A stretch of DNA of 14,565 bases. Origin: Deltaproteobacteria bacterium (GTDB lineage Bacteria > Desulfobacterota > DSM-4660 > Desulfatiglandales > Desulfatiglandaceae). The notes under the pieces were generated by a model. The model worked only from the letters and a program-made list of their open reading frames with translations, did not search any database and had not been told where the DNA came from. Positions 1-14,100 of the stretch are shown one piece after another. Each line of letters opens with the position of its first letter. Within the stretch, counting starts at the first letter, position 1. A program made the translations under genes and the position numbers. Location: the NCBI GenBank assembly GCA_019314425.1, contig JAFCZI010000113.1:1-14565 (forward strand), read 5' to 3'.

Positions 1-497
1 GTGATGAAGATATCCGCCTTCTGAACGACCCCCAGGTAGGGGAGCGAGGGATGCCACAGGTCGTTGCAGATGAAGACCGCCATGGTAAAACCGTGCAGGG
101 TGAAGACCTGCACCTTTTTTCCGGAGGCAAAATATTTCCGTTCCTCGAAAACGCCATAGTTTGGCAGGTTAAGCTTGCGATAGGCAAAAAGAATATTTCC
201 GTCCACCGCCACCAGGGCAGCATTGTAAAAATTCATGGCCGGGGTTTCTTCAATGAACCCCACCACGACCGCCGTCCCTTGGGTGGCCTTTGCCAGGGCC
301 GTTATTTCCGGGGAATCCATCCTCAGGGCAGCTTCGTGGTATCGTTGTCCCACAAAATATCCGGTCAAGGCCAGTTCCGGAAAAACCGACAGATGCGCGC
401 CTTTTTCTGCGGCGTGACGGATTCTGGATATCACATCCTCAAGATTGGTTTTGAGGTCAAGCAGAACCGGATTTGTTTGATGAGCAATCACTTTCAT
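1..497 (-). CDS. Nitrilase/carbon-nitrogen hydrolase superfamily protein (partial, N-terminal 165 residues)
   Basis: Reading leftward from the ATG at 497 gives an open frame to the window edge, so the C-terminal part is missing. The fragment carries the whole nitrilase catalytic set: Glu41 in FPELALTGY, Lys108 in YRKLNLPNYG and the nucleophile Cys144 in FICNDLWHP. Enzymes of this superfamily hydrolyse nitriles or, much more often, carboxamides and carbamoyl compounds in the cytoplasm; CNDLWHP is typical of amidase-like branches. The start is backed by a purine-rich GGTGGGGTG just upstream and by the family's usual N-terminus (MKVIAHQTNP). It starts only 18 nt after the stop of the second methyltransferase and is the last visible gene of the six-gene operon. 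Because an asparagine synthase lies in the same operon, an amide substrate made within the pathway is plausible (inference). The exact substrate cannot be read from the fragment. Confidence 0.9.
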   Translation of the reverse strand, partial: MKVIAHQTNPVLLDLKTNLEDVISRIRHAAEKGAHLSVFPELALTGYFVGQRYHEAALRMDSPEITALAKATQGTAVVVGFIEETPAMNFYNAALVAVDGNILFAYRKLNLPNYGVFEERKYFASGKKVQVFTLHGFTMAVFICNDLWHPSLPYLGVVQKADIFI

Positions 498-515
498 TTT
501 GAATCACCCCACCCA

Positions 516-1694
516 CTAAAATAAAAAACATTTTCCCGTATTCTTGAGGGTGTGATCGTCCCTCATATAGTTCGGCTTGCTTCCATTGCGCATGATCACC
601 TCAAATCCCTCGGGATCATAGGTGTCCATTTTGTAATCAGGGGCTTTTTCGGGGCCGGTTTCGTGGCAGAGCTGGATGTGCCTTTCCAGCTTGGCAATGG
701 AGAAGGAGATTAATTCTTTCAAAAAGCCGAAGGAGTGCCGCATTTGGTGAAATCCGTACTTTTTCATGAGGGCGAATCCTTGCACGGCTTCTTCTTCCGC
801 TTTTTTATTCGGTTTTTCCTGACTGGTGGTGCATGCGGTCTGAATGGAAGGAAGGTCGAGCATTTGGTTGATTTTTTCCTGAAGCAGGTTGGCAATATTG
901 TGCGAAACAAGACCGAGATCAACCGCATAGTTTTTTTGGATATTGGCAATTGAAGGGAGTCCTGCATGGACAACGGTAATCCCTGGATTGATCAATTGTG
1001 CAAGGACGATGCCGAAGAGTCCCTCCGCATGGGTCAAAGTGACCAGACTCGACATGGAGTAAGGGCCTGACAGCCCCGCCATGGGCATGGTGGAAACGTA
1101 AACGGGAATGCCCTTGCGCACGCATGAGATGAAGGGATCTATCATGCTGTCAATAATGTTTAGCGGGCTGTTAATCAACGAAAACTGGACCGTCAGATTT
1201 CCTCTGGTATGGTGCACTTCTTCCGCTCGGGCGATGCCCTCGTCCGTTACCGTTGCAACATAGATTGGTTTGCTGCAATGCTCGATAATGGTGTCGATGA
1301 CCTTCACTTCCTGCCCCTTTAGCAAGACACCCCTTGCCATGAAATCAATGACATCGGCTTGTTCTGCGATCTTTGCTATTCGGGTCAGGTGTTCAAAGGT
1401 CGGTTCCACCAGGTCCCCGGTCTGATCGTCATAGACAAATGGGGCAGTCCCGCCGATGCCGAAGGCATTTTCCGGTATCCAGTATTGCGCTCTTTTGGGC
1501 GTCGTATTGAGGGCCTGCTCCACCAGCGGCCGCAAAACATGGAGATGCCCGGTGCTGTCGTCAAAAGCCGCCATGCCGGTCTCTTCAAAAATTTTTCTGA
1601 CCTCGCGGGAAGCGCACTTGACGCCGATTTCTTCCAGTACCCTGAGGGCGTCGTCATGTATTTTTTCCAGAAGATCGATGTTTATTAGATTCAT
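516..1694 (-). CDS. MttB-family (trimethylamine/betaine methyltransferase superfamily) protein, short form, copy 1
   Basis: This is a homologue of MttB/COG5598 methyltransferases, which move a methyl group from tri- or quaternary amines (trimethylamine, glycine betaine, carnitine) to a corrinoid protein. Diagnostic blocks shared with the second copy at 5661-6911 are IGGTAPFVYDD, CSKPIY, MPMAGLSGPY, THAEGLFGI and GLVSHN. There is no internal TAG, so it belongs to the non-pyrrolysine branch. It is about 392 residues, against roughly 470-490 for characterised members. It ends just after DDHTLKNTGK, so the usual C-terminal tail is absent. Two ATGs occur (1700 and 1694); GAGG abuts the first and sits 6 nt before the second, so 1694 is preferred. 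It lies 15 nt after the PhnP-like gene and 18 nt before the nitrilase gene. The stop is TAG, and readthrough would add only a few residues before TGA. Substrate unknown. Confidence 0.88.
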   Translation of the reverse strand: MNLINIDLLEKIHDDALRVLEEIGVKCASREVRKIFEETGMAAFDDSTGHLHVLRPLVEQALNTTPKRAQYWIPENAFGIGGTAPFVYDDQTGDLVEPTFEHLTRIAKIAEQADVIDFMARGVLLKGQEVKVIDTIIEHCSKPIYVATVTDEGIARAEEVHHTRGNLTVQFSLINSPLNIIDSMIDPFISCVRKGIPVYVSTMPMAGLSGPYSMSSLVTLTHAEGLFGIVLAQLINPGITVVHAGLPSIANIQKNYAVDLGLVSHNIANLLQEKINQMLDLPSIQTACTTSQEKPNKKAEEEAVQGFALMKKYGFHQMRHSFGFLKELISFSIAKLERHIQLCHETGPEKAPDYKMDTYDPEGFEVIMRNGSKPNYMRDDHTLKNTGKCFLF

Positions 1695-1709
1695 GTTCAT
1701 CCTCTCAAA

Positions 1710-2558
1710 CTAGATTGTAATACGCATCCCATCGTGTGCGAAGCGCATATTTTTCAAATTTTTCTCAATTGCCCTATAATCATCATAACCCCTGTTCCAG
1801 TACTCCTCCATATGAACAAAAAGGACCTGATCCGCTTTTAATCTCCGGGCAAGGGCAAGGGTTTCCTCAAATGTGTAAAGGGTGGTCCTCGATATATGGT
1901 TCTCAGGATATCTGAAACCATGTTTGAGGCCCTTCTCAAAGATCCCCGGCTGGATCACGAGGATGTTCGGATGTTTGACTTCATCCCTGTGCTCGGGAAA
2001 CGGCTTGATATCGCACGGTGCGTATACGATTTTCTTCCCCTTTTTTTCAAATATATAGACGAAAGCGGTTTGAGAACCGCGGTCTACGGGGATCGCTGTT
2101 ATTTCGGTTTGCCCTATCGTAGTTCTTCCATCAAACCCGATACATTCCACAAACCCCTGCTGCTCATAGAAATCGATAAGGGGGCCGTAAATCGTTTTGA
2201 GGTCGGTGATCCGATCTTTTAAGACTTGGGGGAGGAGCAGCCGGATGGTTTTTCCCCCGTAGGCTTCCCAGGTGCGAAAATCGAGCGTAATCTGCTCCAC
2301 GACCCTGAATCCTTCCACGTGGTCGGGATCCAGATGGGTAAACAGGAGATAATCAACCCGATCGATATTGGCCCGGTTCAATTGCCAGGCGATCTCCGCT
2401 GGTGCATCGATCAGGAGATTTTCATCATGGACGAAGATGGACGGCCCGGTTCTGGCGTAGGGCGCCCCCTTCTCTCTGGCTTCCCGGCAGACGCGGCATT
2501 TGCAGAGGGGTTTCGGAATCACCGTGCACCCCCCGGAACCCAGAACCGTAACATGCAT
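1710..2558 (-). CDS. PhnP-like metallo-beta-lactamase-fold hydrolase
   Basis: The 282-residue protein has the metallo-beta-lactamase fold of the PhnP type (cyclic phosphodiesterase and relatives). It begins MHVTVLGSGGCTVIPKP, followed by the CxCxxC cluster (Cys19, Cys21, Cys24) that in PhnP builds a structural zinc site. The metal motif reads H75-L-D77-P-D79-H80 rather than HxHxDH, so the second His is Asp. Asp183 (APCDIK) and His249 (FVHMEE) match later ligands, whereas the region expected to hold the middle His reads PVDRGSQ. Whether it binds two metals as usual is therefore open. PhnP acts on phosphoribosyl cyclic phosphate, but no other phn gene is visible, so a phosphonate role is not supported. 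A strong AGAGGGG ribosome site lies 8 nt before the ATG. It starts 17 nt after the FAD oxidoreductase gene, which suggests co-transcription. Confidence 0.88.
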   Translation of the reverse strand: MHVTVLGSGGCTVIPKPLCKCRVCREAREKGAPYARTGPSIFVHDENLLIDAPAEIAWQLNRANIDRVDYLLFTHLDPDHVEGFRVVEQITLDFRTWEAYGGKTIRLLLPQVLKDRITDLKTIYGPLIDFYEQQGFVECIGFDGRTTIGQTEITAIPVDRGSQTAFVYIFEKKGKKIVYAPCDIKPFPEHRDEVKHPNILVIQPGIFEKGLKHGFRYPENHISRTTLYTFEETLALARRLKADQVLFVHMEEYWNRGYDDYRAIEKNLKNMRFAHDGMRITI

Positions 2559-2575
2559 GGATCAAGCCCCTCTGT

Positions 2576-3907
2576 TTAGCTCCAGGGAAAAGGACTGTGA
2601 CTGACCGGATGCAGTTCGCCCTTTTGGTAACGGGTGAAGCGAAAGGGCTCAAGCAACGCCTGTTTCTCCCCCAAGACCTCCTTGGCCACCAGCTTTCCCA
2701 CGCCGATCATTTTATAGCCGTGGTTGGAATCGAGAATAAAATAGCAATTCTGCTTCATGGTGTCAAAAATGGGAAAACTGTCAGGCGTAAAACAGCCTAA
2801 TCCGCCGGAAGGTTCGTTTTTGTACATCCGGTATTGGTCTTCATACCGCTTCTGGCAATGGGCCAGGGCGGAGGTCCACATATGCACAAATTCGGGGGTA
2901 ACCGTAAAGTCCGGTGAATTGATGCCGTAGGGATCCACTTTAACGTCTCCCGTGACGGTGTAGGGCGCTGCCCCGCCCTGAACCCCGCCGAAATTGAAGT
3001 CAGGCTTGTAATAAATGCCCCACATCTCGTCCGTGATCAGTGATCCGTCCTCGCTGGAGTAAAGGGGCGCTTCCGAATCCACATGAATCACCGGTGGCAT
3101 TTCGCCCCGGTTGTTCATGGCATAGGCGGGATCCACCCCAAGGGTGCCCTCCACCAGGCACAGGTAGGTCCACATCTGATTTCCGGAATGCAGAATGCCG
3201 TCGGGTCCCATGATGTCGACTTCATTGGGAAGGCCCAGCATATCCCACAAACCTTTGGCCCAGGGGCCGGGACCGGCGATGACCCAGTCGCACTGAATAT
3301 CGCCCTTTGATGTCTGAACGGCAGTCACGGAATCCTTATCGGTCTTGAACCCGGTGACGGAAACTCCGGTCAATATTCGGACCCCGAGGGCTTCGGCCTT
3401 GTCCGCCAGCCGGTAGAGGGATTTCATCTGGTTGGCATACCCGCCTTTTTTTTCATGCAAAATGGAGGTAATGCCCTTGGCGTGCCAATCGTCAAAGATG
3501 TTTTCCCGCATATAGTTGAGGCAGTCTTTTTCCCCTTCGATAAAAGTCGATTCGTAACCGATATTTTTCTGTTGTTGATAAATTTGAGTCACATCTTCAT
3601 GCATGGATTCCGGAGATATCTGCATGTACCCCACCGGATGAAAACCGTAGCTTTCGGTATCTTCTTCCCATGCGCGAACGCTGTGGGCCATGAGTTCCCG
3701 CATGGCCGGTTGAAAATAGTTGTTGCGGATGATGCCGCAGGCGATGCCCGATGCACCGGCCCCGATGGCCGTTTTATCGATGACCAGGATATCTTTTCCG
3801 CTGCCGGTTTTTTTCTGCTTTAATTCCTGTGCCAGGTGCCAGGCGGTGCTGAGGCCATGGATGCCGGCCCCGATGATAATATATTGGGAATGGGTTGGAA
3901 TTGCCAT
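2576..3907 (-). CDS. DAO-family FAD-dependent oxidoreductase (sarcosine/dimethylglycine/glycine oxidase-like)
   Basis: The 443-residue flavoprotein opens with a dinucleotide-binding fold, YIIIGAGIHGLSTAWHLA (GxGxxG at residues 13-18), and an acidic/lysine strand end (VIDKTAIGAGASG). These are typical of the DAO superfamily, which oxidises the C-N bond of amino acids and N-methyl amines such as sarcosine and dimethylglycine. The C-terminus, FRFTRYQKGELHPVSHSPFPWS, resembles a distinct DAO-family branch. No membrane segment or export signal is apparent, so it is probably cytoplasmic. AGGAG lies 8 nt before the ATG. The operon places it between asparagine synthase and a PhnP-like hydrolase, with two methyltransferases nearby. 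Oxidative demethylation of a secondary or tertiary amine left by methyl transfer would fit (inference). The substrate is not predictable from the sequence alone. Confidence 0.9.
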   Translation of the reverse strand: MAIPTHSQYIIIGAGIHGLSTAWHLAQELKQKKTGSGKDILVIDKTAIGAGASGIACGIIRNNYFQPAMRELMAHSVRAWEEDTESYGFHPVGYMQISPESMHEDVTQIYQQQKNIGYESTFIEGEKDCLNYMRENIFDDWHAKGITSILHEKKGGYANQMKSLYRLADKAEALGVRILTGVSVTGFKTDKDSVTAVQTSKGDIQCDWVIAGPGPWAKGLWDMLGLPNEVDIMGPDGILHSGNQMWTYLCLVEGTLGVDPAYAMNNRGEMPPVIHVDSEAPLYSSEDGSLITDEMWGIYYKPDFNFGGVQGGAAPYTVTGDVKVDPYGINSPDFTVTPEFVHMWTSALAHCQKRYEDQYRMYKNEPSGGLGCFTPDSFPIFDTMKQNCYFILDSNHGYKMIGVGKLVAKEVLGEKQALLEPFRFTRYQKGELHPVSHSPFPWS

Positions 3908-3921
3908 TTTTCGTGACTCCT

Positions 3922-3959
3922 AAAAAAACATGCCCGAAACCAAAAAAAACGGTCCGGGC
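3922..3959 (-). terminator. Possible intrinsic terminator or attenuator between asnB and the FAD oxidoreductase
   Basis: On the minus strand GCCCGGACC can pair with GGTTTCGGGC around a T-rich loop. The stem is 5 bp plus 3 bp with a small internal mismatch. It is followed by ATGTTTTTTT and then directly by the AGGAG ribosome site of the next gene. The stem is modest and lies inside an apparent operon, so partial termination or an mRNA boundary is more likely than a full stop. Confidence 0.4.
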
Positions 3960-3978
3960 CAATTGTATTGAAATGGTT

Positions 3979-5601
3979 TTAAGCGGCTTTGGCCTTTTTT
4001 GCCTCCTCGGTTTCACCGGACAGGTCGTGTTTCAGGTCTCCGTCAACGGTTCCCTTCACGTGTTCCCGTTCTTCGGCGAAATCAAAGCCGGTCCAGATGC
4101 CGATGGAACCCAGGATGGATTTCTGTGGATGAAATTCCCTGAAAATCTTGAAATAATAAGCTGCTTCCCTGCTGTTAATCACTGCGTCCGGGTTTTCAGC
4201 TTTGATCTGGAGGTATTCGTCTTCGGTCATGGCCGCTTCCGCCATCTGCTCTCCGACACTTTCACAGCCAGCTCCCTGGGTATATTGAACTTTGTACCGC
4301 CACAGAATTTCCTCCGGGAGATAGTGGGTGTTTTCAAAGGCTTTTCGAAGGATCCACTTCTCAATTTTGGCGCCGTTGTGCTCGCGGATTTTCAGTTCAG
4401 GCGGTATTTTCATGGATAGATCCACCATGTGGACGTCAAAAAAAGGCACGCGAAGTTCCAGGCTGAAAAGCATGCCCATGCGGTCGGCCCGTTGCAGGTT
4501 AATGTTGTGCACATTTCCGATGCAGCGGCGCGCTTCCAGATTCAATTTGTCAAAGGGAAAATGTTTCATGTAATGATAGCCCGTAAACAACTCATCGGCC
4601 CCCTCGCCGGTGAGCACCACGGTTACGAATTCGGCGGCCAGTTTGCAGGTGAAATAGCAGGGCACGGCACAGCGCACCAGAGACGGATCATAGGTCTCCA
4701 GTTTCTGGATGACCGTGGGCAGGGCTTCGTGGTACTCTGCTTCGGTGAAAATCAGTTCGTGGTGGTTGCATCCGATATGTTTCGCCGCGATTCGAGAAGC
4801 TTTTACATCATCGCTCAAATCCCCGTTTTCATCCCGCATGCCCACCACGAAGGTATGGAGGTTGGGAATCTCATCGGCGGCGATAGCCGCCACCAAGCTG
4901 CTGTCCAGTCCGCCGCTGCAAAAGGCGCCCACCGGGATCTCGGGGTCCGCCAGCAGACGGTCTTTCACCGCCTTTATAAATGTGGTTTTAATTATCTCAC
5001 AGGTTTCATCCACGTCCGTCAGAATGTGCTCCTGAATTTCAGGAATGGTGTAAAATTTGACGAACCCTTCTCCGGGCGTGTAGTAGTGACCCGCTGGAAA
5101 CTCATGGACTTCCGCCACACCCGCCAGGGTCATGGCCCCCAACTCAGAGGTAAAATAGAGGTTTCCATCTTGATAGCCGTAATAAAGCGGTTTGATGCCG
5201 ATGGGATCCCGCGCCAGCATGAAGTCATTCCCCTCAAAAATGGCAAAGGCGAACATGCCCTCAAGTTGTTTGACGCACTCCGGTCCGTGCTTCTTGTAAA
5301 GGTTTAGGATTACTTCCGTATCCGACTGAGTGGTAAACCTGAAAGCGCCGTTTAAACGTTTTTTTAATGAACGAAAATTGTAGATTTCCCCATTGCACAC
5401 AATGCCGCAGTTTCCATCATCGGCCAAAATGGGTTGGTGACCGGAAGCAACATCCACAATGGACAACCGGGTGTGACCCACCACACCATTTTTGTGTTCG
5501 TGAATTCCCCGATCATTGGGGCCCCGATGAGAAAGGGCATCCAGCATTTTATTGATGATTCTTGTATCCTTGACTCCAAAACATCCAGCAATGCCACACA
5601 T
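3979..5601 (-). CDS. asnB: Asparagine synthase (glutamine-hydrolysing), AsnB family
   Basis: This class II glutamine amidotransferase is fused to an asparagine synthase domain, 540 residues, close to the family's usual length. The mature N-terminus MCGIAGCFG puts the nucleophile at Cys2, followed by LSHRGPND, RLSIVD, NGEIYN (70-75) and SDTE. The synthase half carries the ATP pyrophosphatase loop SGGLDSS (229-235) and TGEGADELFTGY. AsnB activates a carboxylate with ATP and amidates it with ammonia from glutamine; aspartate is the classic acceptor. Here the enzyme sits between a methyltransferase and an FAD oxidase, so a non-aspartate carboxylate in the pathway is possible (inference). An ATG at 5619 is in frame, but the ribosome site lies downstream of it, and starting there would bury the catalytic cysteine. 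The tail after about residue 500 is rich in Lys, Glu and Ala. Confidence 0.93.
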   Translation of the reverse strand: MCGIAGCFGVKDTRIINKMLDALSHRGPNDRGIHEHKNGVVGHTRLSIVDVASGHQPILADDGNCGIVCNGEIYNFRSLKKRLNGAFRFTTQSDTEVILNLYKKHGPECVKQLEGMFAFAIFEGNDFMLARDPIGIKPLYYGYQDGNLYFTSELGAMTLAGVAEVHEFPAGHYYTPGEGFVKFYTIPEIQEHILTDVDETCEIIKTTFIKAVKDRLLADPEIPVGAFCSGGLDSSLVAAIAADEIPNLHTFVVGMRDENGDLSDDVKASRIAAKHIGCNHHELIFTEAEYHEALPTVIQKLETYDPSLVRCAVPCYFTCKLAAEFVTVVLTGEGADELFTGYHYMKHFPFDKLNLEARRCIGNVHNINLQRADRMGMLFSLELRVPFFDVHMVDLSMKIPPELKIREHNGAKIEKWILRKAFENTHYLPEEILWRYKVQYTQGAGCESVGEQMAEAAMTEDEYLQIKAENPDAVINSREAAYYFKIFREFHPQKSILGSIGIWTGFDFAEEREHVKGTVDGDLKHDLSGETEEAKKAKAA

Positions 5602-5610
5602 AATGAATAT

Positions 5611-5616
5611 CTCCTT
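5611..5616 (-). promoter_or_regulatory. Ribosome binding site that fixes the asnB start
   Basis: AAGGAG on the minus strand lies 9 nt before the ATG at 5601. This ATG gives Met-Cys-Gly-Ile, which exposes Cys2 after Met removal, as the amidotransferase chemistry requires. The upstream in-frame ATG at 5619 would place this site inside the coding region. Confidence 0.75.
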
Positions 5617-5660
5617 CAAAAGTCCTGCACGATATGCGTATATTATTTTTTCCAGTTCCC

Positions 5661-6911
5661 TTAATGGACGAAGATCTTACCCAGATTCGCGGTGGTCAGC
5701 GCATCCTCCATATACATCCCCAAGCCGATACGGCGAATAGATTCCATTCCCCCGTCGTCATAGACCACGTTTTCCACTTCAGGCGCATCTTCCGGCGTCA
5801 CGGTTTCCGAAATTTCAATGGCTTTTTCAAGTTTTTCAAATGAAAAATCGATCAGGTAGCGTAGGAAGGCAAAGGGGTGGCGAATCATGTGAAAGCCGTA
5901 TTTCAAACACAGGGCCTGCCCCATCTTGGCGTCTTCATAAGCGCGGTCCGTGAGGTGCTCTTCATGGGTGGTGCCGGCACTCTGAAAAGTGGGCAGATCC
6001 AACATGAGGTTGAGGTGCGTCATGAGCAGGTTCAGATAATTGTGGCTCACCAGGCCGTAATTGGGGTTGTATTCAATGCTGGGGTCCGCAATGGTGGGAT
6101 AGCCCGCATGAACGCAGGTGACGCCGGGATTCAGTAGCTGGGCCGCGCAAATACCGAACAAAACCTCTGCATGGGTCATGGAAAGCACGCCGTTATAGCA
6201 GTAAGGTGCGCTGATGCCAGCCATTGGCATGGCCGAAATGAATGTAGGAAGTCCGGATTTGACCACGTTTACGAAATTTTCGGAGAAATTTTCGTTCACT
6301 TCCAGGGGCGGTCGCGTCAGGCAGAACACGATCATGATGTTCTTTCTTTCTTCATAAATTTCAAGGGCCCGGACCAATGCCTTGTCCGACGTCACGGCGA
6401 AATAGAGGGGCTTCGAACAGGTTTCCGCCATGAGGGTCATCTGTTCTACTTCATCCTTCAGTTTGATGCCGCGTCCCATGCCGCCCACCGGACCACTCTT
6501 CTGGGCGATTCGGGCAATACGGGCCGCATGTTCGGCGGTGGGGAAAATACCCCCCTGGCCTTTCTTGTCGTCATAAACATAAGGGGCCGTGCCTCCGATG
6601 AAAAAGCTCTTAAGGGGAACAAAAAACTCATTCACCCCGGGGGTGGTTTTAAGACATTGCTCCACCAGGTCACCCATGAGATAAATTCGATCTTCGTAAA
6701 CGGCGGCCAGCCCTTCTGCTTCAAGCTTTTTAAAGACCTGCTGCATGTCCGGCTGTTTGCATCCCACGCCCAGGTTTTCCAGTATCCACAACGCGTCCTG
6801 ATGGGAACGCATCAGCATTTCTACAACCGATTCGCCCAGTATGGACGTTGATTTTTTTACTTGCGCGTCGTTCAAAAATTTCTCCTCATCTAAAAAATTG
6901 AGGCCCGACAT
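5661..6911 (-). CDS. MttB-family (trimethylamine/betaine methyltransferase superfamily) protein, short form, copy 2
   Basis: This is the first structural gene of the operon, 416 residues, and a paralogue of the gene at 516-1694. Shared blocks are IGGTAPYVYDD, CSKPLY, MPMAGISAPY, THAEVLFGI, NPGVTCVHAG and GLVSHN. It belongs to the MttB/COG5598 superfamily of corrinoid-linked amine methyltransferases and lacks an internal TAG; its stop is TAA. Like its partner it ends early (MEDALTTANLGKIFVH), lacking the C-terminal tail of typical members. The frame is open upstream to a TTG at 6932 and an ATG at 6929. Only the ATG at 6911 has a well-placed ribosome site (GAGGA, 9 nt before), so it is chosen. 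The gene lies behind a good promoter and palindromic operator-like sites. Two paralogues in one operon might form a heteromer or act on two methylation states (inference). Confidence 0.88.
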   Translation of the reverse strand: MSGLNFLDEEKFLNDAQVKKSTSILGESVVEMLMRSHQDALWILENLGVGCKQPDMQQVFKKLEAEGLAAVYEDRIYLMGDLVEQCLKTTPGVNEFFVPLKSFFIGGTAPYVYDDKKGQGGIFPTAEHAARIARIAQKSGPVGGMGRGIKLKDEVEQMTLMAETCSKPLYFAVTSDKALVRALEIYEERKNIMIVFCLTRPPLEVNENFSENFVNVVKSGLPTFISAMPMAGISAPYCYNGVLSMTHAEVLFGICAAQLLNPGVTCVHAGYPTIADPSIEYNPNYGLVSHNYLNLLMTHLNLMLDLPTFQSAGTTHEEHLTDRAYEDAKMGQALCLKYGFHMIRHPFAFLRYLIDFSFEKLEKAIEISETVTPEDAPEVENVVYDDGGMESIRRIGLGMYMEDALTTANLGKIFVH

Positions 6912-6934
6912 TGGACCTGTTCCTCGCATCAATT

Positions 6935-7127: not shown

Positions 7128-7586
7128 TCAGGTGACCTTCAGACCCTGAACGTCGAGCATGTCGGTGAGCCGTTTAAGGGTCAAAGCGATCTCGTCGATT
7201 GCTTTAGGAGAGAGGCTGTTGAGTCCGTCAACAATTTTTTGCTGAATAGGCGGAGGGGCGTTTTCCGCGAGGGCTTCGCCGGCTTTCGTCAATTCCACGG
7301 TCACCACCCGGCGATCCGGCGATATGCGTAATCGTTTCACAAGATCTTTATTTTCCAGCCGGTCTATAATCCCGGTCACCGTACTGGAATTGACCATCAC
7401 ATGTTTCGCAATCTGAGAGGGAGAAAGCGGGCCGTTTTCATGAAGGGCGTAAATCTTGTTTAATTCCTTTGTGTAATGCTCCCCCGCCTGCATCAATCGG
7501 CGAATGGCGTAAACAATCTCCTTCGTTCGCATGGCATGATAGTCTTGGGATATTTCAGACAGCGTATCTTCACAGGTTTCAGGCAT
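7128..7586 (-). CDS. MarR-family transcriptional regulator
   Basis: The 152-residue protein has the MarR winged helix-turn-helix layout. An N-terminal helical dimerisation region comes first. The recognition segment LSPSQIAKHVMVNSSTVTGI lies roughly at residues 54-73, followed by DRLENKDLVKR, then the wing with the conserved SPDRRVVTVELTKAG pattern and C-terminal dimer helices. GAGGA lies 7 nt before the ATG. MarR proteins usually repress neighbouring genes and release DNA on binding a small ligand. This one lies between the divergent betaine-type transporter and the methyltransferase operon, and palindromes overlap the operon promoter downstream. Regulation of one or both units by a methylated amine or pathway product is a reasonable inference. 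Transcription could also continue from this gene into the operon, since only weak hairpins precede the T-tract near 7103-7109. Confidence 0.92.
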   Translation of the reverse strand: MPETCEDTLSEISQDYHAMRTKEIVYAIRRLMQAGEHYTKELNKIYALHENGPLSPSQIAKHVMVNSSTVTGIIDRLENKDLVKRLRISPDRRVVTVELTKAGEALAENAPPPIQQKIVDGLNSLSPKAIDEIALTLKRLTDMLDVQGLKVT

Positions 7587-7684: not shown

Positions 7685-8443
7685 ATGATACAATTAAAGC
7701 AAGTTTCCAAGTCGTTTGATGAAGGCTGTACCTATGCTGTAAAAGACCTCTCTTTAAGGGTCAATACAGGTGAGACGCTCGTACTGCTGGGATCGTCCGG
7801 TTGCGGCAAAACCACTACCCTTAAGATGATTAACCGGCTCATTGAACCGACTGAAGGGTGTATCGAAGTGGGTGGCGAGGATATCCTGAAACAGGACCCG
7901 GTTGTGCTACGGCGGCGGATCGGCTATGTTTTCCAAGGGATCGGGCTTTTCCCGCACATGACCGTTGAACAAAACGTGGGGTTGGTGCCGCAGATTTCAG
8001 GGGAACCCATTGAAAAAAGAAATGCGAATGCTCACCAACTCCTGGAAATGGTAGGACTCCATCCCGAAACGTTTGCCAACCGGTTTCCGGCCGAACTCTC
8101 CGGTGGTCAGCAGCAACGGGTAGGCGTCGCCCGCGCACTGGCAGCTGATCCGGACTATCTGCTCATGGATGAGCCGTTCGGCGCCCTCGATGCGCTGAGT
8201 CGTGAGTTGCTACAGCAGGAATTGCTGGATTTAAAAAAGAAATTGGAAAAGACCATTGTTTTTGTGACCCATGATATTTTTGAAGCGCTTCTGCTGAGCG
8301 ATCGCATTGCAATCCTGCATCAGGGCCGGCTGGAACAGGTCGGGACGAAAAAGGATATCCTGTCGGCGCCTGCAACCCCGTTTGTAAAGGATCTTTTTTC
8401 AAAACCCGCCAGGCAGTTGGCTGATTTTCAGGAAATGACGTGA
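7685..8443 (+). CDS. Osmoprotectant/betaine-type ABC transporter ATP-binding protein
   Basis: This 252-residue ABC ATPase has Walker [10 protein letters not shown] (from residue 36), Q-loop Gln84 (VFQ), signature [16 protein letters not shown] (from 138), Walker [13 protein letters not shown] and switch His196 (FVTHD). The strand [21 protein letters not shown] and overall pattern match the OpuC/OsmV/ProV branch, which powers uptake of glycine betaine, choline and similar compounds. The C-terminal CBS domains of long members are absent, so it is a short form of the OsmV kind. An AAGG-type ribosome site precedes the ATG. Its stop overlaps the permease start (TGATG), which indicates translational coupling. 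It is divergent from the MarR gene, with about 100 bp between them that hold no convincing promoter to my eye. Substrate assignment within quaternary amines is not possible. Confidence 0.9.
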
Positions 8444-9363
8444 TGGCATCCCAATCTCTGGCCGCTTTTGTCTCCGAACGTTTACCCGAACTCTGGTTTC
8501 GAACCGGCGAGCATCTCATGCTCACCGGATCTTCTTCCGGTGCGGCCATGCTGATCGGGATACCGCTCGGAATGCTTCTGTACCGTAAACGCTGGTTTCG
8601 CAATCCCGCCATGGGCACCATCAGCATCCTTCAGACCATTCCCAGTCTGGCCATGCTGGCCTTCCTCCTGGCGCTTCTCCACAAAATCGGGGCTTTGCCG
8701 GCCATCATCGCCTTAACCCTTTATGCGCTCCTTCCCATCGTCCGCAATACGCTCACCGGACTGGAAGGGGTATCCGCCCAGGTGATGGAGGCCGCAAGGG
8801 GCATCGGGATGACAGAGGGCCAGCAACTGAGAATGGTTCGAATACCCCTGGCGGCACCGGTCATTGTTGCCGGGATTCGAACCGCAGTGGTTGTGGGCGT
8901 GGGGATTGCAACCCTTTCGGCCTTTATCGGCGCCGGGGGCCTGGGGCAGTTTATTAACCGCGGTCTTGCGCTTTCCAACACAAGGCTCATTCTTTTGGGT
9001 GCTATCCCTGCTGCCTTGCTGGCCCTCCTTTTGGACTTCACCATCGGGGCCTTTTTGTGGGGGGCTGCACCTGAAAGAAAACGAAAGGGGGGATCAGCGC
9101 AAAATTTCTTGAGGGCAGCAGCACTGGGGATGCCTGTCCTGTTGGTTATTACCGGTATATTGGCCTACTTTAGCAATCCCTATGCACAAAGCGGGCGAAT
9201 AGCAGCGGACGACCTTAATGCCCGCACGGTGGTCATCGGGACAAAGAATTTTACGGAACAACTGATTCTGGGTGAGCTGATGGCCCAAATGATTGAGGCC
9301 CGGACATTATTGAAAGTAGAACGGCGCTTCAATCTCGGCGGTACCATAAATCCAGTGGGTTGA
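8443..9363 (+). CDS. ABC transporter permease fused to a truncated substrate-binding domain (OpuC/ProWX-like)
   Basis: Residues 1-215 form a binding-protein-dependent permease of the ProW/OpuCB type, with several membrane helices and the EAA loop ([24 protein letters not shown], about residues 114-137) that docks on the ATPase. An extra membrane segment (about 224-240, [15 protein letters not shown]) then leads to the start of an OpuAC/OsmX-type binding domain: [21 protein letters not shown]. In related fusion proteins (about 500 residues) this domain continues for some 230 more residues. Here it ends at [11 protein letters not shown] and a stop, total 306 residues. The other two frames after GGT close quickly, so this is loss of sequence, not a simple frameshift. 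The preferred start is ATG 8443, which overlaps the ATPase stop; GTG 8440 is also in frame. The importer probably cannot capture substrate unless another binding protein serves it. Confidence 0.85.
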
Positions 9364-9521
9364 TTTAGTAAACAGGGATTCCGGGAGAGAGAAAGCGGAA
9401 GCGTTTCGTGAATCGCGAGAAGAGAGTTGATCTGCTCAGCGCTTACGTTGTATATTCTGTCTAACGCCTTAGAAACAGGCAAACCCCTTGAAGATTGCCC
9501 CTGATCAGGAGACGGAAAAGA

Positions 9522-10331
9522 ATGAAAAGCATTGATCGACTTGTTGAAATCATTCAGGAAATTTCTTCCGGGGAATACTCAAATGATATTATGGGGCTGA
9601 CTTGCGCTGATCAGCCGGAGATGGTGCAAACCATTGCGGAGGCCATGGGCTTGATGATGGTCAAGGTGGAGGCGAGGGAGTACCGACTCGAATTGATGGT
9701 TGAGAAGCTGAAAGCATTAAACGAAAAGATCAAGCGGAATACCATTCAGGCGGTGTCGACCATGGCCCATGCGCTGGCCGCGCGTGATGCCTACACGGAA
9801 GGACATGCCGCGCGGGTAGCGGATGTGGCCTGTAAAATAGCCAGGCAAATGGGGCTGACGGAAGAAGAAATAGAGTTTGTTCGATTGGGCGGCATTCTGC
9901 ACGACATCGGAAAAATAGGATTTCCAGATCGTCTTTTCGAGGCCCATGCACAAAAAAATCCGTCAGACCTGGTCAAACAGATCACCCGGCACCCGAGCAC
10001 TGGGGCAAAGATCTTGGAAGACCTCGACTTCCTGGGTCCGGCGCTTGAGTATGTTCATTGTCACCACGAACGACCCGACGGCAAGGGATACCCCCGCCAT
10101 CTCAAGGCCGAACAGATTCCCCTGGGCGCCAGAATCCTGGCGGTTGCAGATGCCTTTGACGCCATGACAACCGACCGGCCCTATCAAAAAGGCAAGCCCC
10201 CTGAAGTCGCCTTGGATATTTTGAAAAAGAGCGCCGGGGAAAAGTGGGATGACCGGTGTGTTTCAGCCTTTGATGCGGTTTTGAACGGAGCAAAATCAGA
10301 ATCAGAGGCTGACGAACACCAGAATAGCTAG
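9522..10331 (+). CDS. HD-GYP domain protein (probable cyclic-di-GMP phosphodiesterase)
   Basis: The 269-residue protein has an N-terminal helical segment (1-75, likely coiled coil near 48-72) with no recognised sensor or receiver domain. An HD-GYP domain follows: GHAARVA, the metal pair in HDIGK (127-131), HCHHERPDGKGYP with HHE at 181-183 and GYP at 189-191, and ADAFDAMTTDRPY. HD-GYP enzymes hydrolyse cyclic-di-GMP; the GYP signature is intact, so activity is plausible. The frame opens at a TTG at 9495, but AGGAG lies 10 nt before the ATG at 9522, which gives MKSIDRLVEI. It follows the truncated transporter gene after 158 nt of sequence in which I recognise nothing; the lost part of the binding domain would be expected there. 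Without a sensor domain it may rely on protein partners (inference). Confidence 0.9.
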   Translation: MKSIDRLVEIIQEISSGEYSNDIMGLTCADQPEMVQTIAEAMGLMMVKVEAREYRLELMVEKLKALNEKIKRNTIQAVSTMAHALAARDAYTEGHAARVADVACKIARQMGLTEEEIEFVRLGGILHDIGKIGFPDRLFEAHAQKNPSDLVKQITRHPSTGAKILEDLDFLGPALEYVHCHHERPDGKGYPRHLKAEQIPLGARILAVADAFDAMTTDRPYQKGKPPEVALDILKKSAGEKWDDRCVSAFDAVLNGAKSESEADEHQNS

Positions 10332-10475: not shown

Positions 10476-10754
10476 CTAGTGGCTACCCCGCTTTGAAGCC
10501 TTGATGGGGTTAATTTTTGCAGCGCCTTTTGCGGCTTCCACTTTAAGGTGGGTTGCCATGGCGCAATTGCCGATACGCCATTTGGCGGAAGGATCCGGGA
10601 ATACCATGCAGTATTCACCATCGGTATAATTTATTACTCTTTGACAGCCAGCACACCCTTCAACAATTTTGTGACATGCACCGCCGTTAAATCCACACCC
10701 TTTTTTAGTCATGAAAGAACAATCCTGACCGTCTTTTACTGTTGTACAAACCAT
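10476..10754 (-). CDS. PxxKW-type cysteine-rich small protein
   Basis: The 92-residue protein has eight cysteines in its first 64 residues (3, 12, 20, 27, 34, 37, 49, 64) and the segment FPDPSAKWRIGNC, with Pro55-x-x-Lys58-Trp59. This matches the PxxKW family of cysteine-rich proteins that I recall from deltaproteobacteria. The function is unknown; the cysteine spacing suggests metal binding or an iron-sulfur cluster (inference). The frame is open upstream to a TTG at 10784, but AGAGGA lies 10 nt before the ATG at 10754, and family members begin like MVCTTVKDG. The C-terminus is basic (KASKRGSH). The gene lies inside a ~535-bp inverted-repeat structure and runs against the HD-GYP gene. No terminator is visible after it. 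Confidence 0.8.
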   Translation of the reverse strand: MVCTTVKDGQDCSFMTKKGCGFNGGACHKIVEGCAGCQRVINYTDGEYCMVFPDPSAKWRIGNCAMATHLKVEAAKGAAKINPIKASKRGSH

Positions 10755-10794
10755 TTTAATCACATCCTCTTGAGCCAGTTTCAAAACGCCCCCT

Positions 10795-11000: not shown

Positions 11001-11040
11001 AAAAAATAAATGTAGAGGCACGGTGCACCGTGCCCCTACA
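11001..11040 (-). terminator. Strong intrinsic terminator of the hisS-aspS operon
   Basis: Positions 11011-11040 form a 30-base palindrome: arm TGTAGAGGCACGGTG and its complement, with one mismatch that becomes a G-U pair in the minus-strand transcript. It is followed on the minus strand by TTTATTTTTT. The aspS stop codon TAG lies inside the stem, so the hairpin starts before translation ends. Confidence 0.85.
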
Positions 11041-12844
11041 GGTTGATGTTGAGCCCCAGTTCTTTCAGTTGACCCGGGTCCACCCTGGACGGCGCTTCCG
11101 TAAGGGGGCAGGTGCCACTGGTGGTTTTGGGAAATGCGATGATTTCCCGGATGGAACTAACCCCGGTCATAATGGCCACAAGGCGATCAAACCCCAGTGC
11201 CATGCCGCCATGGGGGGGTGCGCCATGTTTCAAGGCATCGATCAGAAACCCAAATTTTGATCGGGCTTCTTCCGATGAAATGCCCAATGCCTCGAAAACG
11301 GCCTCCTGGGTTGCCGCATTGTGAATCCTGATGCTGCCGCCGCCGATTTCCGATCCGTTCAAAACCAGATCATACGCCCTGCCCCTGACTTTCCCCGGGT
11401 GTTCCAGAAGTAATGCCAGGTCTTCCTCCACGGGGGCCGTAAACGGGTGATGGACCGCCACAAACCGGCCATCGGCCTCATCATATTCCAACAGCGGGAA
11501 ATCCGTCACCCAGACGAAGGCGTATTCCCCTTCCTTTATCAAGCCCTCTCGCCGGGCCATTTCCAGACGGAGCGCGCCCAAGGCCGCGTTGGCAATGGCG
11601 GGTTGATCCGCCACCATCAGGATCAGGTCTCCCGGAACAGCATCAAGACGCCCATTGAGGGAGAGCCTCGCTTCATCGCTAAAAAATTTCGCCAGGGGGG
11701 ATTGCCACTTGTCCTCCGCGACTTTGATCCACGCCAGGCCTTTGGCCCCGTTGGCGGTGGCCATCAGGGATATTTCGTCCAGCGCCTTTCTCGAGTAGTC
11801 AGCGGCCGCGTTCTTCACGCAAATGGCCTTAACCATGCCACCTGCGGCAACAACGCCCTTAAAAACCTTGAAATCCGATTGTTCCGCGATATCGGTGATG
11901 TTTTTAAGTTCCATGGCAAACCGCAAATCCGGTCGATCCGTACCAAAGCGATCCATGGCATCCTGATAGGTCAGATGGGGGATGGGGGCCGGGATTTCTC
12001 GGCCCATTATCTTGCTGAAAAGCGCACCCATCATGCCTTCAAAAATATCCATGACGGTTTTTTCGTCAACAAACGCCATTTCCAGGTCCACCTGGGTGAA
12101 CTCCGGTTGCCGGTCCGCCCTGAGATCCTCGTCCCTGAAACATCTGACCACCTGATAATACCGATCGAACCCCGCTATCATCAGCAGCTGTTTGAAGAGC
12201 TGGGGGGATTGGGGAAGGGCGTAAAACATGCCGCGATTGATTCTGCTGGGCACCAGGTAATCCCTTGCGCCTTCAGGGGTGCTCTTGGTGAGAACAGGCG
12301 TTTCCACTTCGATGAAATCCCGTTCGTCCAAATAGGCTCTGATGAAGGAGGCGATGGCATGACGTTTTCGGAAATTCTCAAAAATCTGCGGCCTGCGAAG
12401 TTCCAAATAACGGTATTTCAACCGAAGGCTTTCAGATGCATCCACGGCCCCATCCACCTGGAACGGGGGTGTTTCAGTCTGATTGAGGAGCTTCACCTCT
12501 TCTGCTTTTATTTCGATTTCCCCGGTGGGGAGATCTCGATTTTCCTGGCCTTCGAGTCTGGGAACCACCGTGCCTTTGACAGCCAGAACCCACTCATTGC
12601 GCAGAACATGGGCCCTTTCATGGGCGGTGGCATTAACCTGGGGGTCAAAAACCACCTGGGTAATCCCTTCCCTGTCCCTCAAATCGATGAAAATGAGGTT
12701 TCCAAGGTCGCGTCTTCTGTTCACCCACCCCATCAGGATGACTTCCTGGCCCACATGCTGCTGCCTGAGGGTTCCGCAGTTGTGGGTTCGTTTCCATTCC
12801 CCCAGCGAATCAATGGTTATGGTCTCGTTCTGTTTGTCTTTCAT
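11036..12844 (-). CDS. aspS: Aspartyl-tRNA synthetase
   Basis: This class II synthetase has 602 residues, the bacterial length with the inserted GAD domain. The N-terminal anticodon-binding OB fold reads GWVNRRRDLGNLIFIDLRDREGI. The catalytic core has ATPEGARDYLVPSR-like (here STPEGARDYL), ALPQSPQLFKQLLM, motif 2 FRDEDLRADRQPEFTQ and motif 3 MALGFDRLVAI. It charges tRNA-Asp with aspartate. Leu47 in RRRDLG matches the Leu of the tRNA-Asp-specific E. coli enzyme, where non-discriminating forms carry His, so a discriminating enzyme is likely (inference). The start codon overlaps the hisS stop (ATGA), indicating translational coupling. A strong terminator follows directly. Confidence 0.97.
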   Translation of the reverse strand: MKDKQNETITIDSLGEWKRTHNCGTLRQQHVGQEVILMGWVNRRRDLGNLIFIDLRDREGITQVVFDPQVNATAHERAHVLRNEWVLAVKGTVVPRLEGQENRDLPTGEIEIKAEEVKLLNQTETPPFQVDGAVDASESLRLKYRYLELRRPQIFENFRKRHAIASFIRAYLDERDFIEVETPVLTKSTPEGARDYLVPSRINRGMFYALPQSPQLFKQLLMIAGFDRYYQVVRCFRDEDLRADRQPEFTQVDLEMAFVDEKTVMDIFEGMMGALFSKIMGREIPAPIPHLTYQDAMDRFGTDRPDLRFAMELKNITDIAEQSDFKVFKGVVAAGGMVKAICVKNAAADYSRKALDEISLMATANGAKGLAWIKVAEDKWQSPLAKFFSDEARLSLNGRLDAVPGDLILMVADQPAIANAALGALRLEMARREGLIKEGEYAFVWVTDFPLLEYDEADGRFVAVHHPFTAPVEEDLALLLEHPGKVRGRAYDLVLNGSEIGGGSIRIHNAATQEAVFEALGISSEEARSKFGFLIDALKHGAPPHGGMALGFDRLVAIMTGVSSIREIIAFPKTTSGTCPLTEAPSRVDPGQLKELGLNINL

Positions 12845-14100
12845 TTTTTAAGAATATCCTTTAGGGTCAGTACCAGATTGTCAAAATCGATCTCCCGTTG
12901 TTCCCGGGTGTTCATGTTCCGCAGAATCGCTTTTTGGGTCCGGAACTCGTCGTCTCCGACCATCAGGACGCTTTGGGCGCCCAACCGACCCGCTTTCTTC
13001 ATTTGCGATTTAAGGCCTTTTCCCCCGTAATCCAGCTCCACCCAGAGTCCCAGTTTTCTTAATGCCGTCATCCATTGAAACGTCAATTGATCAACGTTTT
13101 CGCCCAGGGCGGCAATAAAAAGATCGGGTTTCAAGAGTTCCATCGGCGCTGACGCTTCCAGGAGCGCGACCACTCTTTCAATGCCCACGGCAAACCCGAT
13201 GGCGGGGTGGTCAGGACCGCCCAGCGTTTTGACCAGGCCATCGTATCGCCCCCCCCCGGCGACGGCATTCTGGGCGCCCAGGTGCTCGGTCTGAATTTCG
13301 AATGTGGTTCGGTTGTAATAATCAAGCCCCCGGACCAGCTGGTCGTTCACCTCGAAGGAGATGTTTAACGCATCAAGGGTGGCTTTGAGTGATCCAAAAT
13401 GGTCCCGGCAGTCCCGGCAGAGAAAGGCGGGTATGGCGGGTGCGTCCCGAACGATGGTGCGGCAGGTTTCCACTTTGCAATCAAACACCCGCAACGGGTT
13501 TAACTGGGCCCTTTTTTGACAATCGGCGCAAAGGGATGAGGTCTTTTCGGCCAGATAGCTTTTCAGCTTTTCTTTAAAGCCCGGCTGACAATCGGGGCAT
13601 CCCAGGGAATTGACTTGCAGGGTGAGGTCCCGCAACCCCATTGTCTCAAAAAGATACATCGCCAGGCTGATTATTTCGGCATCGCTTTTGGGACCCGGAT
13701 CGCCGAAAAGTTCAACATCAATCTGATGAAACTGCCGAAAGCGGCCCTTTTGAGGCCGTTCATGCCTGAACATGGGCCCCATGGCATATAATTTCTGTAT
13801 GGGATAATTCTGGTACAACCGGTGTTGAATATAGGCCCTGACCACAGACGCGGTGGCCTCCGGCCTCATGGTCAGCCCCCGTCCCTTGATATCTTCAAAG
13901 GAGTACATCTCCTTTGACACAATATCGGTTTCCTGGCCGATGCCGCGGCTGAAAAGTTGGGTTTTTTCAAGAATGGGGGTCTTGATTTCCTGGTATCCAA
14001 ATGCGGAAAAAAGATCCCGCGCCTTGGCTTCAATTTCCTGCCATCGGGCTGATTCTCCGGGGAGGATATCTTTAAAGCCTTTTAATGTTGTAAATTCCAA
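12841..14100 (-). CDS. hisS: Histidyl-tRNA synthetase
   Basis: This class II synthetase has 419 residues, normal for the bacterial enzyme. It shows the N-terminal LKGFKDILPGE, TMRPEATASVVRAY, motif 2 FRHERPQKGRFRQFHQ, the histidine-specific VRGLDYYNRTTFE and motif 3 AIGFAVGIERV, then the C-terminal anticodon domain. An insertion with repeated cysteine pairs (CPDC, CADC, CKVETC, CRDC) lies between the core halves; such insertions occur in some HisRS lineages and may bind zinc (inference). The start is TTG at 14100, giving (M)EFTTLKGFKDILPGE, with AGGAG 11 nt upstream and no in-frame ATG nearby. It lies 45 nt after a small basic-protein gene and overlaps aspS by 4 nt. Confidence 0.97.
   Translation of the reverse strand: MEFTTLKGFKDILPGESARWQEIEAKARDLFSAFGYQEIKTPILEKTQLFSRGIGQETDIVSKEMYSFEDIKGRGLTMRPEATASVVRAYIQHRLYQNYPIQKLYAMGPMFRHERPQKGRFRQFHQIDVELFGDPGPKSDAEIISLAMYLFETMGLRDLTLQVNSLGCPDCQPGFKEKLKSYLAEKTSSLCADCQKRAQLNPLRVFDCKVETCRTIVRDAPAIPAFLCRDCRDHFGSLKATLDALNISFEVNDQLVRGLDYYNRTTFEIQTEHLGAQNAVAGGGRYDGLVKTLGGPDHPAIGFAVGIERVVALLEASAPMELLKPDLFIAALGENVDQLTFQWMTALRKLGLWVELDYGGKGLKSQMKKAGRLGAQSVLMVGDDEFRTQKAILRNMNTREQREIDFDNLVLTLKDILKK

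Follow-up and report, generated by a model that had tools for sequence, protein, structure and literature searches.

A conserved gene cluster linking MttB-type proteins to an AsnB-type ligase in Desulfobacterota, with a possible role in demethylation of betaine-like amines

In anoxic sediments, methylated amines and betaines serve as major substrates. Among described systems, the glycine betaine:corrinoid methyltransferase systems (MtgB/MtgC/MtgA, and also MtpB, MtcB and MtyB) share with the operon reported here the MttB superfamily fold, a nearby betaine importer and the expected demethylation of a quaternary amine. Unlike them, the operon lacks genes for a corrinoid protein and MTII and carries two shortened MttB paralogues together with genes for an AsnB-type ligase, a DAO-family enzyme, an MBL-fold protein and a nitrilase. 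In strain DCMF, the glycine betaine cluster comprises MttBs, MTII, corrinoid proteins and transporters, and the word "asparagine" was not found in the available portions of the main text of the paper describing it (PMC9768040). A direct literature search for an AsnB-MttB gene cluster likewise returned no description, in agreement with the initial annotation, which knew of no pathway with such a set. The ligase resembles asparagine synthetase B (E. coli 1ct9 and human 6gq3) in domain order, type I cysteine nucleophile, PP-loop, catalytic lysine and GEGxDE motif, but its family is changed at or near the aspartate site in 52 of 52 full-length members, its type II form lacks the cysteine, and its genomic partner is MttB. 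Amine gamma-glutamylation routes, for example the Puu putrescine pathway, resemble the operon in combining an ATP ligase, an FAD oxidase and an amide hydrolase; they differ in that the ligase here is of the AsnB family and not a glutamine synthetase, MttB proteins are present, and the operon has no aldehyde dehydrogenase. Heterotetrameric sarcosine oxidase and N-methylglutamate routes are also comparable, in that the DAO protein is distantly related to the SoxB-type subunit and SoxA-, SoxB- and SoxD-type genes adjoin MttB1 in some loci, but this DAO is a single-subunit protein that scores 68.1 bits against the soxB model TIGR01373 (sarcosine oxidase beta; cut-off 529.45).

The window analysed is a whole contig of 14,565 nucleotides (JAFCZI010000113.1) from a member of the Desulfatiglandaceae. 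Six minus-strand open reading frames run in one direction in the order MttB1, AsnB, DAO, MBL-fold, MttB2 and nitrilase, as originally annotated. The gaps between them had been given as 15-75 nt; measured from MttB1 to the nitrilase they are 59 (or 41), 71, 17, 9 and 18 nt. The single good promoter that had been proposed could not be confirmed: a TTGACA-17-TATATA reading is possible at about 7070-7042, but a consensus scan, which yielded 17 promoter-like sites in the window versus 12.3 (sd 3.8) in shuffles, omits it. Directly upstream of the operon lies a MarR-family regulator (7128..7586, minus strand; PF01047). Divergent from the operon, on the plus strand, are an OpuA-type ATPase of a betaine/choline ABC importer (7685..8443; TIGR01186, 301.7 bits with a cut-off of 326.6) and an OpuB-type permease (8440..9363; BPD_transp_1) whose fused substrate-binding domain is shortened to OpuAC positions 2-37. 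The OpuA-type gene holds the same position in strain NaphS2, where the permease counterpart has 527 amino acids and a complete OpuAC.

The order MarR-MttB1-AsnB-DAO-MBL-MttB2-nitrilase was found again in NaphS2 and in two further genomes (G018 and G362), and the gene set is conserved together across families of Desulfobacterota, bacteria of the sulfate-reducing type. Recurrence of the same order on other contigs argues against chance clustering, which was rejected. In the 33 loci that carry AsnB and extend 5.6 kb or more downstream from MttB1, MttB2 was found in 31, MBL in 22, DAO in 20, nitrilase in 17 and a corrinoid demethylase module in 10. MttB1, MttB2 and the AsnB-type ligase thus occur together in 31 of the 33, a strong linkage. 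A strict six-gene unit was rejected, since DAO, MBL and nitrilase vary among loci, although the loci in which MBL (11) or nitrilase (16) was not seen may partly reflect contig ends, because the end of the nitrilase lies some 6 kb beyond MttB1. In 10 of the 43 loci that were long enough, MttB1 is more distant and AsnB is missing. Across 62 loci, a MarR gene with 50% identity or more was present in 31 and an OpuA-type gene in 20. The proposal that the genes form one pathway is supported by their joint conservation across the families of the phylum, the frequent adjoining OpuC-type importer and the distribution of the type I ligase, described below.

The window's ligase (3979..5619, minus strand; PF00733 and GATase_7) is a type I AsnB-like glutamine-dependent amidotransferase/ligase with its real start, MCG, at 5601. 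All 29 type I sequences have MCG at the N-terminus. The window protein retains the glutaminase cysteine, scores 587.8 bits against NF006949 (cut-off 499) and also passes the TIGR01536 cut-off, as would be expected if it were a housekeeping asparagine synthetase placed here by chance with no pathway role. A second form, type II, lacks the cysteine in 27 of 27 sequences, as do most other linked forms, and the one type II protein tested reached 294.9 of the 499 bits for NF006949. On the MttB1 tree, one type has replaced the other at this position in the cluster ten times or more. A serine in place of the cysteine was considered as a mark of linkage to MttB and is not a strict one, being carried by L149, L150, L154 and L158 with no MttB in the stretch examined.

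We take T322 and T323 of E. coli AsnB to be aspartate-site residues. When the 52 full-length members were compared with the E. coli and human enzymes only, the positions of T322, T323 and R325 (E. coli) and Asp-400 (human) read S/L/R/N in 26 of 26 type I proteins, with the arginine kept, and D/C/S/A in 26 of 26 type II proteins. Aspartate-site roles for Arg325 in E. coli (PMC12018205) and Asp-400 in human (PMC6748925) are given in the available portions of those papers. The "background" AsnB set has 17 rows, in which one type I gene appears twice and the remainder belong to other AsnB subfamilies, and so is no fair control for this site. Judged by sequence, the ligase comes as two interchangeable types, both altered at predicted aspartate-site residues.

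Genome distribution also bears on the housekeeping explanation. Of 395 phylum genomes, 15 hold a type I AsnB and all 15 hold an MttB-AsnB operon. MttB1 is present in 11 of these 15 versus 13 of 395 overall (p 1e-16, kinship ignored), and the remaining four have an AsnB gene that shares a gene run with long MttB genes. No type I or type II AsnB was found in 10 genus and family genomes without MttB1, and the window's genome encodes another AsnB-family protein, of 644 amino acids. In favour of a housekeeping enzyme, one genome (G032) has a type II AsnB (73%) and no MttB1, and lone type I or II copies occur in G013, G018, G024, G118 and G403; neighbourhoods of the AsnB matches were followed in part, leaving out for example G210, G315 and G352. 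On the distribution and the residues together, including the lost cysteines, this explanation was set aside as very improbable.

MttB1 (5661..6932, minus strand; PF06253, 65.5 bits) is a short, divergent MttB-superfamily protein. Its probable start is an in-frame ATG at 6911, the start also chosen in the initial annotation. Its paralogue MttB2 (516..1700, minus strand) scores 112.1 bits for PF06253 (cut-off 25), is 43-44% identical to MttB1 and clusters with it, apart from the long MttBs; MttB1 orthologues in the nearest relatives are 84-97% identical. A pyrrolysine-type MttB was rejected, as neither gene contains an in-frame stop (amber codon), and TIGR02369, the pyrrolysine-type trimethylamine methyltransferase model, gave 93 and 50.9 bits for the two proteins (cut-off 525). 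The structure of MttB1, the one paralogue modelled, was predicted by AlphaFold2 from 42 rows of MttB1, MttB2 and long MttB sequences with a pLDDT of 93.7; 15 close MttB1 sequences only gave 47.9. The best PDB matches were MttB (7xcl/7xcm) and MtgB (2qne/9yce), with a TM score of 0.73 (query length) to 7xcl and 2qne and a high Foldseek rmsd of about 15. On this model, MttB1 is predicted to have the MttB fold.

The fold would be expected if MttB1 and MttB2 were ordinary corrinoid-dependent betaine demethylases whose acceptor is encoded elsewhere, such as the Wood-Ljungdahl corrinoid iron-sulfur protein, with AsnB and the nitrilase handling nitrogen. The alignment also retains GGT columns in both paralogues, which would correspond to Gly110-Thr111 of MttB, a pair that contacts the corrin ring according to the available part of PMC9842639. 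CoFeSP-type proteins were above cut-off in seven of eight genomes (the exception being G030), and the cap-domain corrinoid protein family PF02607 was found in 14 of the 19 genomes searched, NaphS2 and G018 each counted once, with some matches within proteins of 600-900 amino acids. Against this, about 60 C-terminal residues of both long MttBs are missing in all six MttB1 and all six MttB2 rows. The region equivalent to MttB 396-495, described in the same part of PMC9842639 as the end of the dimerisation loop plus two anchoring helices that help hold the corrinoid protein MttC, is consequently incomplete. The canonical MttB core block is not retained. No PF02607 match was found in G018, G362 (one contig), TRIP AH-1, G365 or the incomplete G000, and D. 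magnum has one weak match; the genomes without a match include two well-assembled ones that carry the complete DAO-type operon and another whose operon is damaged. Finally, in all 10 loci with a corrinoid protein next to MttB1, a long MttB is present as well. We therefore regard ordinary corrinoid demethylases as unlikely. MttB1 and MttB2 are shortened, divergent MttB-fold paralogues and, in view of the short C-terminus, the altered core residues and the well-assembled genomes without the cap-domain protein, are probably not corrinoid methyltransferases of the ordinary kind; the initial assignment to the MttB family stands, and the methyl transfer from amines that went with it is doubtful in its ordinary corrinoid form.

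The DAO-family FAD amine dehydrogenase/oxidase (2576..3907, minus strand; PF01266, 121 bits) has sarcosine oxidase and dimethylglycine dehydrogenase as its nearest solved structures. DAO and the corrinoid module, which co-occur in none of the 33 loci, have switched at least four times on the tree, and an MtrH-like protein is present in six of the ten corrinoid-module loci. Replacement of DAO by a corrinoid demethylase module suggests that this slot probably serves N-demethylation. MttB1 and MttB2 stay while the modules alternate, and they carry new, nearly invariant residues (His254, Glu256, His275, His348, Arg351 and His352). Both observations would suit a substrate-binding protein or C-N lyase without methyl-group catalysis, the demethylase always being the exchangeable module. 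This is an unlikely alternative, since at one locus (L132, genome G030) a full-length MttB accompanies AsnB and DAO as if equivalent, with neither MttB1 nor MttB2 found in the stretch or genome.

The fourth gene encodes an MBL-fold hydrolase (1710..2558, minus strand; PF12706, 57.9 bits). The annotation "PhnP-like" holds for the MBL fold only: the PhnP model scores 40.7 (cut-off 272), and the HxHxDH motif is replaced by HxDxDH, the consensus of 24 sequences being tHlDPDHvEG. The sixth gene (3..497, minus strand) belongs, as annotated, to the nitrilase superfamily of C-N hydrolases (PF00795, 88.7 bits), but only its N-terminal 165 of about 312 amino acids are present, because the window is a whole contig and the contig end cuts the gene. 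The Glu/Lys/Cys triad presumably lies in the segments FPElAlTGYF, RKLNLPNYGVF and FICNDlW, all three of which are conserved among 19 relatives and also found in the fragment. In NaphS2, where the orthologue is full-length, the protein is closest to the N-terminal portion of glutamine-dependent NAD+ synthetase. A role for the nitrilase as ammonia source for type II AsnB was not supported, as it accompanies both AsnB types.

At a probability of roughly 45%, we propose that the operon allows a betaine-like amine, carboxylated and N-methylated, to be taken up and N-demethylated by way of an amidated intermediate. OpuAB would import the betaine-like compound under regulation by MarR, and the AsnB-type enzyme would use ATP to activate the carboxylate of this substrate, not aspartate, and form the amide. 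MttB1 and MttB2 may form a heteromeric MttB-fold enzyme that acts on the quaternary or methylated ammonium group and probably needs no MttC-type corrinoid protein. N-methyl groups would be removed by the exchangeable module, DAO here and long MttB plus corrinoid protein elsewhere, and the nitrilase-type and MBL hydrolases would release the acid again. We infer the direction (breakdown), substrate class, amide intermediate, heteromer, step order and MttB1/MttB2 chemistry. Of the schemes first suggested, amidation followed by demethylation or oxidation and amide hydrolysis is the best fit, although the whole set is not obligatory. This scheme gains weight from other families, in which AsnB-family genes also occur within canonical corrinoid MttB clusters, in a single case (L144) together with OpuAB and a nitrilase.

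The other suggestion, synthesis of a methylated amide with no degradation, the product then being an osmolyte or metabolite, could draw on the match of AsnB to the NAGGN amidotransferase model, which is below cut-off (266 versus 570 bits). A SAM-methyltransferase-like protein, with no match in a PDB search, also precedes AsnB in nine canonical clusters. This appears quite unlikely, as the adjoining importer and MarR gene, the exchange of DAO for the corrinoid module and the SoxA- and SoxB-type genes in more distant MttB1 loci all fit breakdown.

An extended form of the demethylation proposal is speculative and, in our estimate, rather unlikely. MttB1 and MttB2 would represent a new MttB-fold catalytic type, a heteromer free of corrinoid protein that acts on a betaine amide and not on the free acid. 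Amidation by the re-targeted AsnB would be a compulsory gate, with later removal of the amide. AsnB-gated demethylation would be a general strategy of Desulfobacterota, common to the canonical corrinoid MttB clusters. The operons of NaphS2 and Desulfonema magnum, for example, offer a defined set of proteins for testing. If true, an amide-dependent route, together with MttB-fold proteins in genomes that lack the cap-domain corrinoid family, would alter how annotations of "trimethylamine methyltransferase" and "asparagine synthase B" are read in these bacteria.

The operon lies on the minus strand of the window, a whole contig (C121) from a draft assembly of 2.8 Mb and 475 contigs with an estimated completeness of 80%. 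The genes for MttB1, AsnB, DAO, an MBL-fold hydrolase, MttB2 and a nitrilase (first 165 residues only) follow one another with gaps of 59 (or 41, if the earliest candidate start is used), 71, 17, 9 and 18 nt. MttB1 and MttB2 are short, divergent paralogues of the MttB superfamily (PF06253), and no other PF06253 protein was found in the 80% complete draft. AsnB is a ligase and DAO an FAD enzyme nearest, among solved structures, to sarcosine oxidase and dimethylglycine dehydrogenase. In the MBL family (window 1710-2558 and relatives), HxDxDH takes the place of HxHxDH, and a Cys-rich N-terminus is conserved. Upstream are a MarR gene and the divergent OpuAB genes of a betaine-type importer. As a candidate for the good promoter described in the initial annotation, TTGACA-17-TATATA can be read, yet it is absent from a consensus scan of the window (17 sites, 12.3 expected). 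The fused substrate-binding domain of the OpuB permease (8440-9363) breaks off after 37 profile positions, through either a real deletion or an assembly join; the NaphS2 counterpart is the intact 527-aa form. There follow an HD-domain ORF (9495-10331), a small Cys-rich PxxKW/DUF6811 protein (10476-10784) and two minus-strand genes (11036-14100), presumably AspRS- and HisRS-like, with a terminator-like hairpin of 13 pairs at 11040-11011.

The proposal that these genes form one pathway was followed by seeking the same order in other genomes. NaphS2 (L024) shows every gene in this order, MarR and the divergent OpuAB included; it can be placed in the genus of the window, since its record and that of G004, of the same genus, give identical matches. 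A profile scan of genome contigs with the MttB1 alignment as query returned 61 loci (62 with the window), from Desulfobacterota-type organisms and a few labelled only 'Proteobacteria', 'Pseudomonadota' or 'bacterium'. Gene content was counted at the 43 of 62 loci with at least 5.6 kb after MttB1. AsnB is present at 33 and missing at 10, those with more distant MttB1. The 33 AsnB-bearing loci hold MttB2 (31), the MBL-fold gene (22) and the nitrilase (17), the last count being lowered by contig ends because the NaphS2 nitrilase ends about 6 kb after MttB1. MarR (at least 50% identical) occurs at 31 of the 62 loci and an OpuA-type gene at 20. In the phylum sample, 13 of 395 genomes have MttB1 (at least 67% identity); another holds MttB2 together with a stretch of 150 residues that matches at 65%. 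Desulfonema magnum has an extra, lone MttB1-like gene (L126, 2.29 Mb; 59% identical) distant from its operon.

DAO is exchangeable. Among the 33 loci, 20 carry DAO, 10 a long-MttB/corrinoid module, none both and three neither. The module comprises a long MttB (f8) and a two-domain corrinoid protein (f9) at all 10, with a Pterin_bind/MtrH-like protein (f13) at six and a B12-activation-like protein (f15) at five; one f8 protein scored 481.6 bits against TIGR02369 (cut-off 525). It precedes MttB1 at six loci and follows MttB2 at four (L040, L044, L053, L059), and the two of these four included in the tree have another long-MttB lineage. The MttB1 tree, which has 61 rows and is weak at 25 of its 58 inner branches, places at least four switches between DAO and module. 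The reaction of this slot would be N-demethylation, since it is common to FAD enzymes of the sarcosine oxidase and dimethylglycine dehydrogenase kind and to corrinoid methyltransferases.

Two AsnB types, about 30% identical, likewise share one operon position, and L053 carries both. They switch at least 10 times on the MttB1 tree, including between the close relatives L030/L033 and L047/L049. The N-terminal Cys is present in 29/29 type I sequences, the window's type, and 0/27 type II sequences, some being one gene counted twice. At the positions of E. coli T322 and T323, which we take to be aspartate-site positions, E. coli R325 and human Asp-400, type I has S, L, R, N (26/26) and type II has D, C, S, A (26/26). 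According to excerpts of the respective papers, E. coli Arg325 has been studied for aspartate binding (PMC12018205) and human Asp-400 forms part of the pocket in which the amino group of modelled inhibitors sits (PMC6748925). Type I (at least 69%) occurs in 15 of 395 genomes, 11 of which have MttB1, counts not corrected for kinship. Eleven of the 15 genes lie in one run with MttB-family genes; four are alone (G013, G024, G118, G403), each in a genome with another AsnB-MttB operon. Ten genomes from the genus and family lack MttB1, and neither type was found in them; one of the ten (G021) has a related AsnB in a canonical cluster (L128). Type II is linked less strictly: in G032, where no MttB1 is found, it lies on a contig of 4.5 kb (73%), and a second copy in G018 (L120) stands alone.

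That canonical cluster (f15, f8, f13, second long MttB, f9, SAM-methyltransferase-like protein of 420 aa, AsnB) was found at nine loci (L128, L131, L140, L141, L146, L147, L148, L153, L155; L147 and L155 cut by contig ends) and is apparently an undescribed pathway of its own. Other orders are MarR-AsnB-OpuA-OpuB-(gap)-MttB-nitrilase-MtrH-like-MttB-corrinoid protein (L144) and MarR-AsnB-DAO-OpuABC-long MttB (L132). Ser replaces the Cys in 7 of 10 cluster AsnBs, and L131, L140 and L141 keep it. No MttB was found in the stretches examined around Ser-type AsnBs at L149, L150, L154 and L158 or nine less similar AsnBs (L159-L167).

At eight loci (L055, L063, L065, L066, L070, L071, L075, L077) SoxA/SoxB/SoxD-type genes stand beside MttB1 without AsnB and, except at L071, without MttB2. 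They are joined, in varying combination, by an MmgE/PrpD protein and by a GlmS-like protein of about 1,500 residues; L053 has Sox-type genes in addition to the usual set. This GlmS-like glutamine amidotransferase (f12) accompanies MttB1 at L063, L065, L071, L075, L077 and L081, several of which also hold the Sox-type and MmgE/PrpD genes.

MttB1 and MttB2 are 43-44% identical and form two separate groups on one side of a long branch from 32 long MttBs, in a quick tree that carries a long-branch warning. The AlphaFold2 model of MttB1 is confident (pLDDT 93.7), its top PDB matches being MttB and MtgB (Foldseek rmsd about 15). About 60 C-terminal residues are missing from 12/12 MttB1/MttB2 rows relative to two aligned long MttBs, and the GMSDSK..D.QAGYE block of long MttBs is absent from MttB1 and MttB2. 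According to the excerpt of PMC9842639, this C-terminal part of MttB anchors the dimerisation loop with which the neighbouring subunit holds the corrinoid protein. His254, His275, His348, Arg351 and His352 (window MttB1 numbering) occur in 22, 22, 24, 24 and 24 of 24 MttB1 rows, 16/16 MttB2 rows and 0/2 long MttB rows. However, the Gly-Thr pair that contacts the corrin ring in MttB is kept.

Across 19 genomes examined, no PF02607 cap domain was found in G018 (98% complete), G362 (98%, one contig), TRIP AH-1, G365 or the incomplete G000; the other 14 all have it, with D. magnum (a single weak match of 35.6 bits) at one extreme and G118 (26 matches) at the other. Complete DAO-type operons are present in G018 and G362 (L114, L115). 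TRIP AH-1 is a weaker case, because MttB2 is lacking and MttB1 reads as two pieces; G365 has MttB1 and a GlmS-like protein (39% to f12), with no AsnB. In G018 and TRIP AH-1, the listed PF02310 matches have, in our reading, the sizes expected of mutase subunits and radical-SAM proteins. CoFeSP-type proteins occur in seven genomes (G000, G004, G018, G362, G365, D. magnum, TRIP AH-1), so CoFeSP is still a possible methyl acceptor for MttB1 and MttB2; G030 has a single match, below cut-off.

No description of this gene set was found in searches of the open-access PMC literature, a coverage that takes in few subscription papers. The comparisons demonstrate that the genes are linked, that parts are exchangeable and that residues have changed, and the chemistry and direction of the pathway are our inference: in the simplest common story, to which we give a probability slightly under one half (about 0.45), a betaine-like acid would be imported, converted to an amide, demethylated and finally released by amide hydrolysis. 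The component proteins belong to known families.
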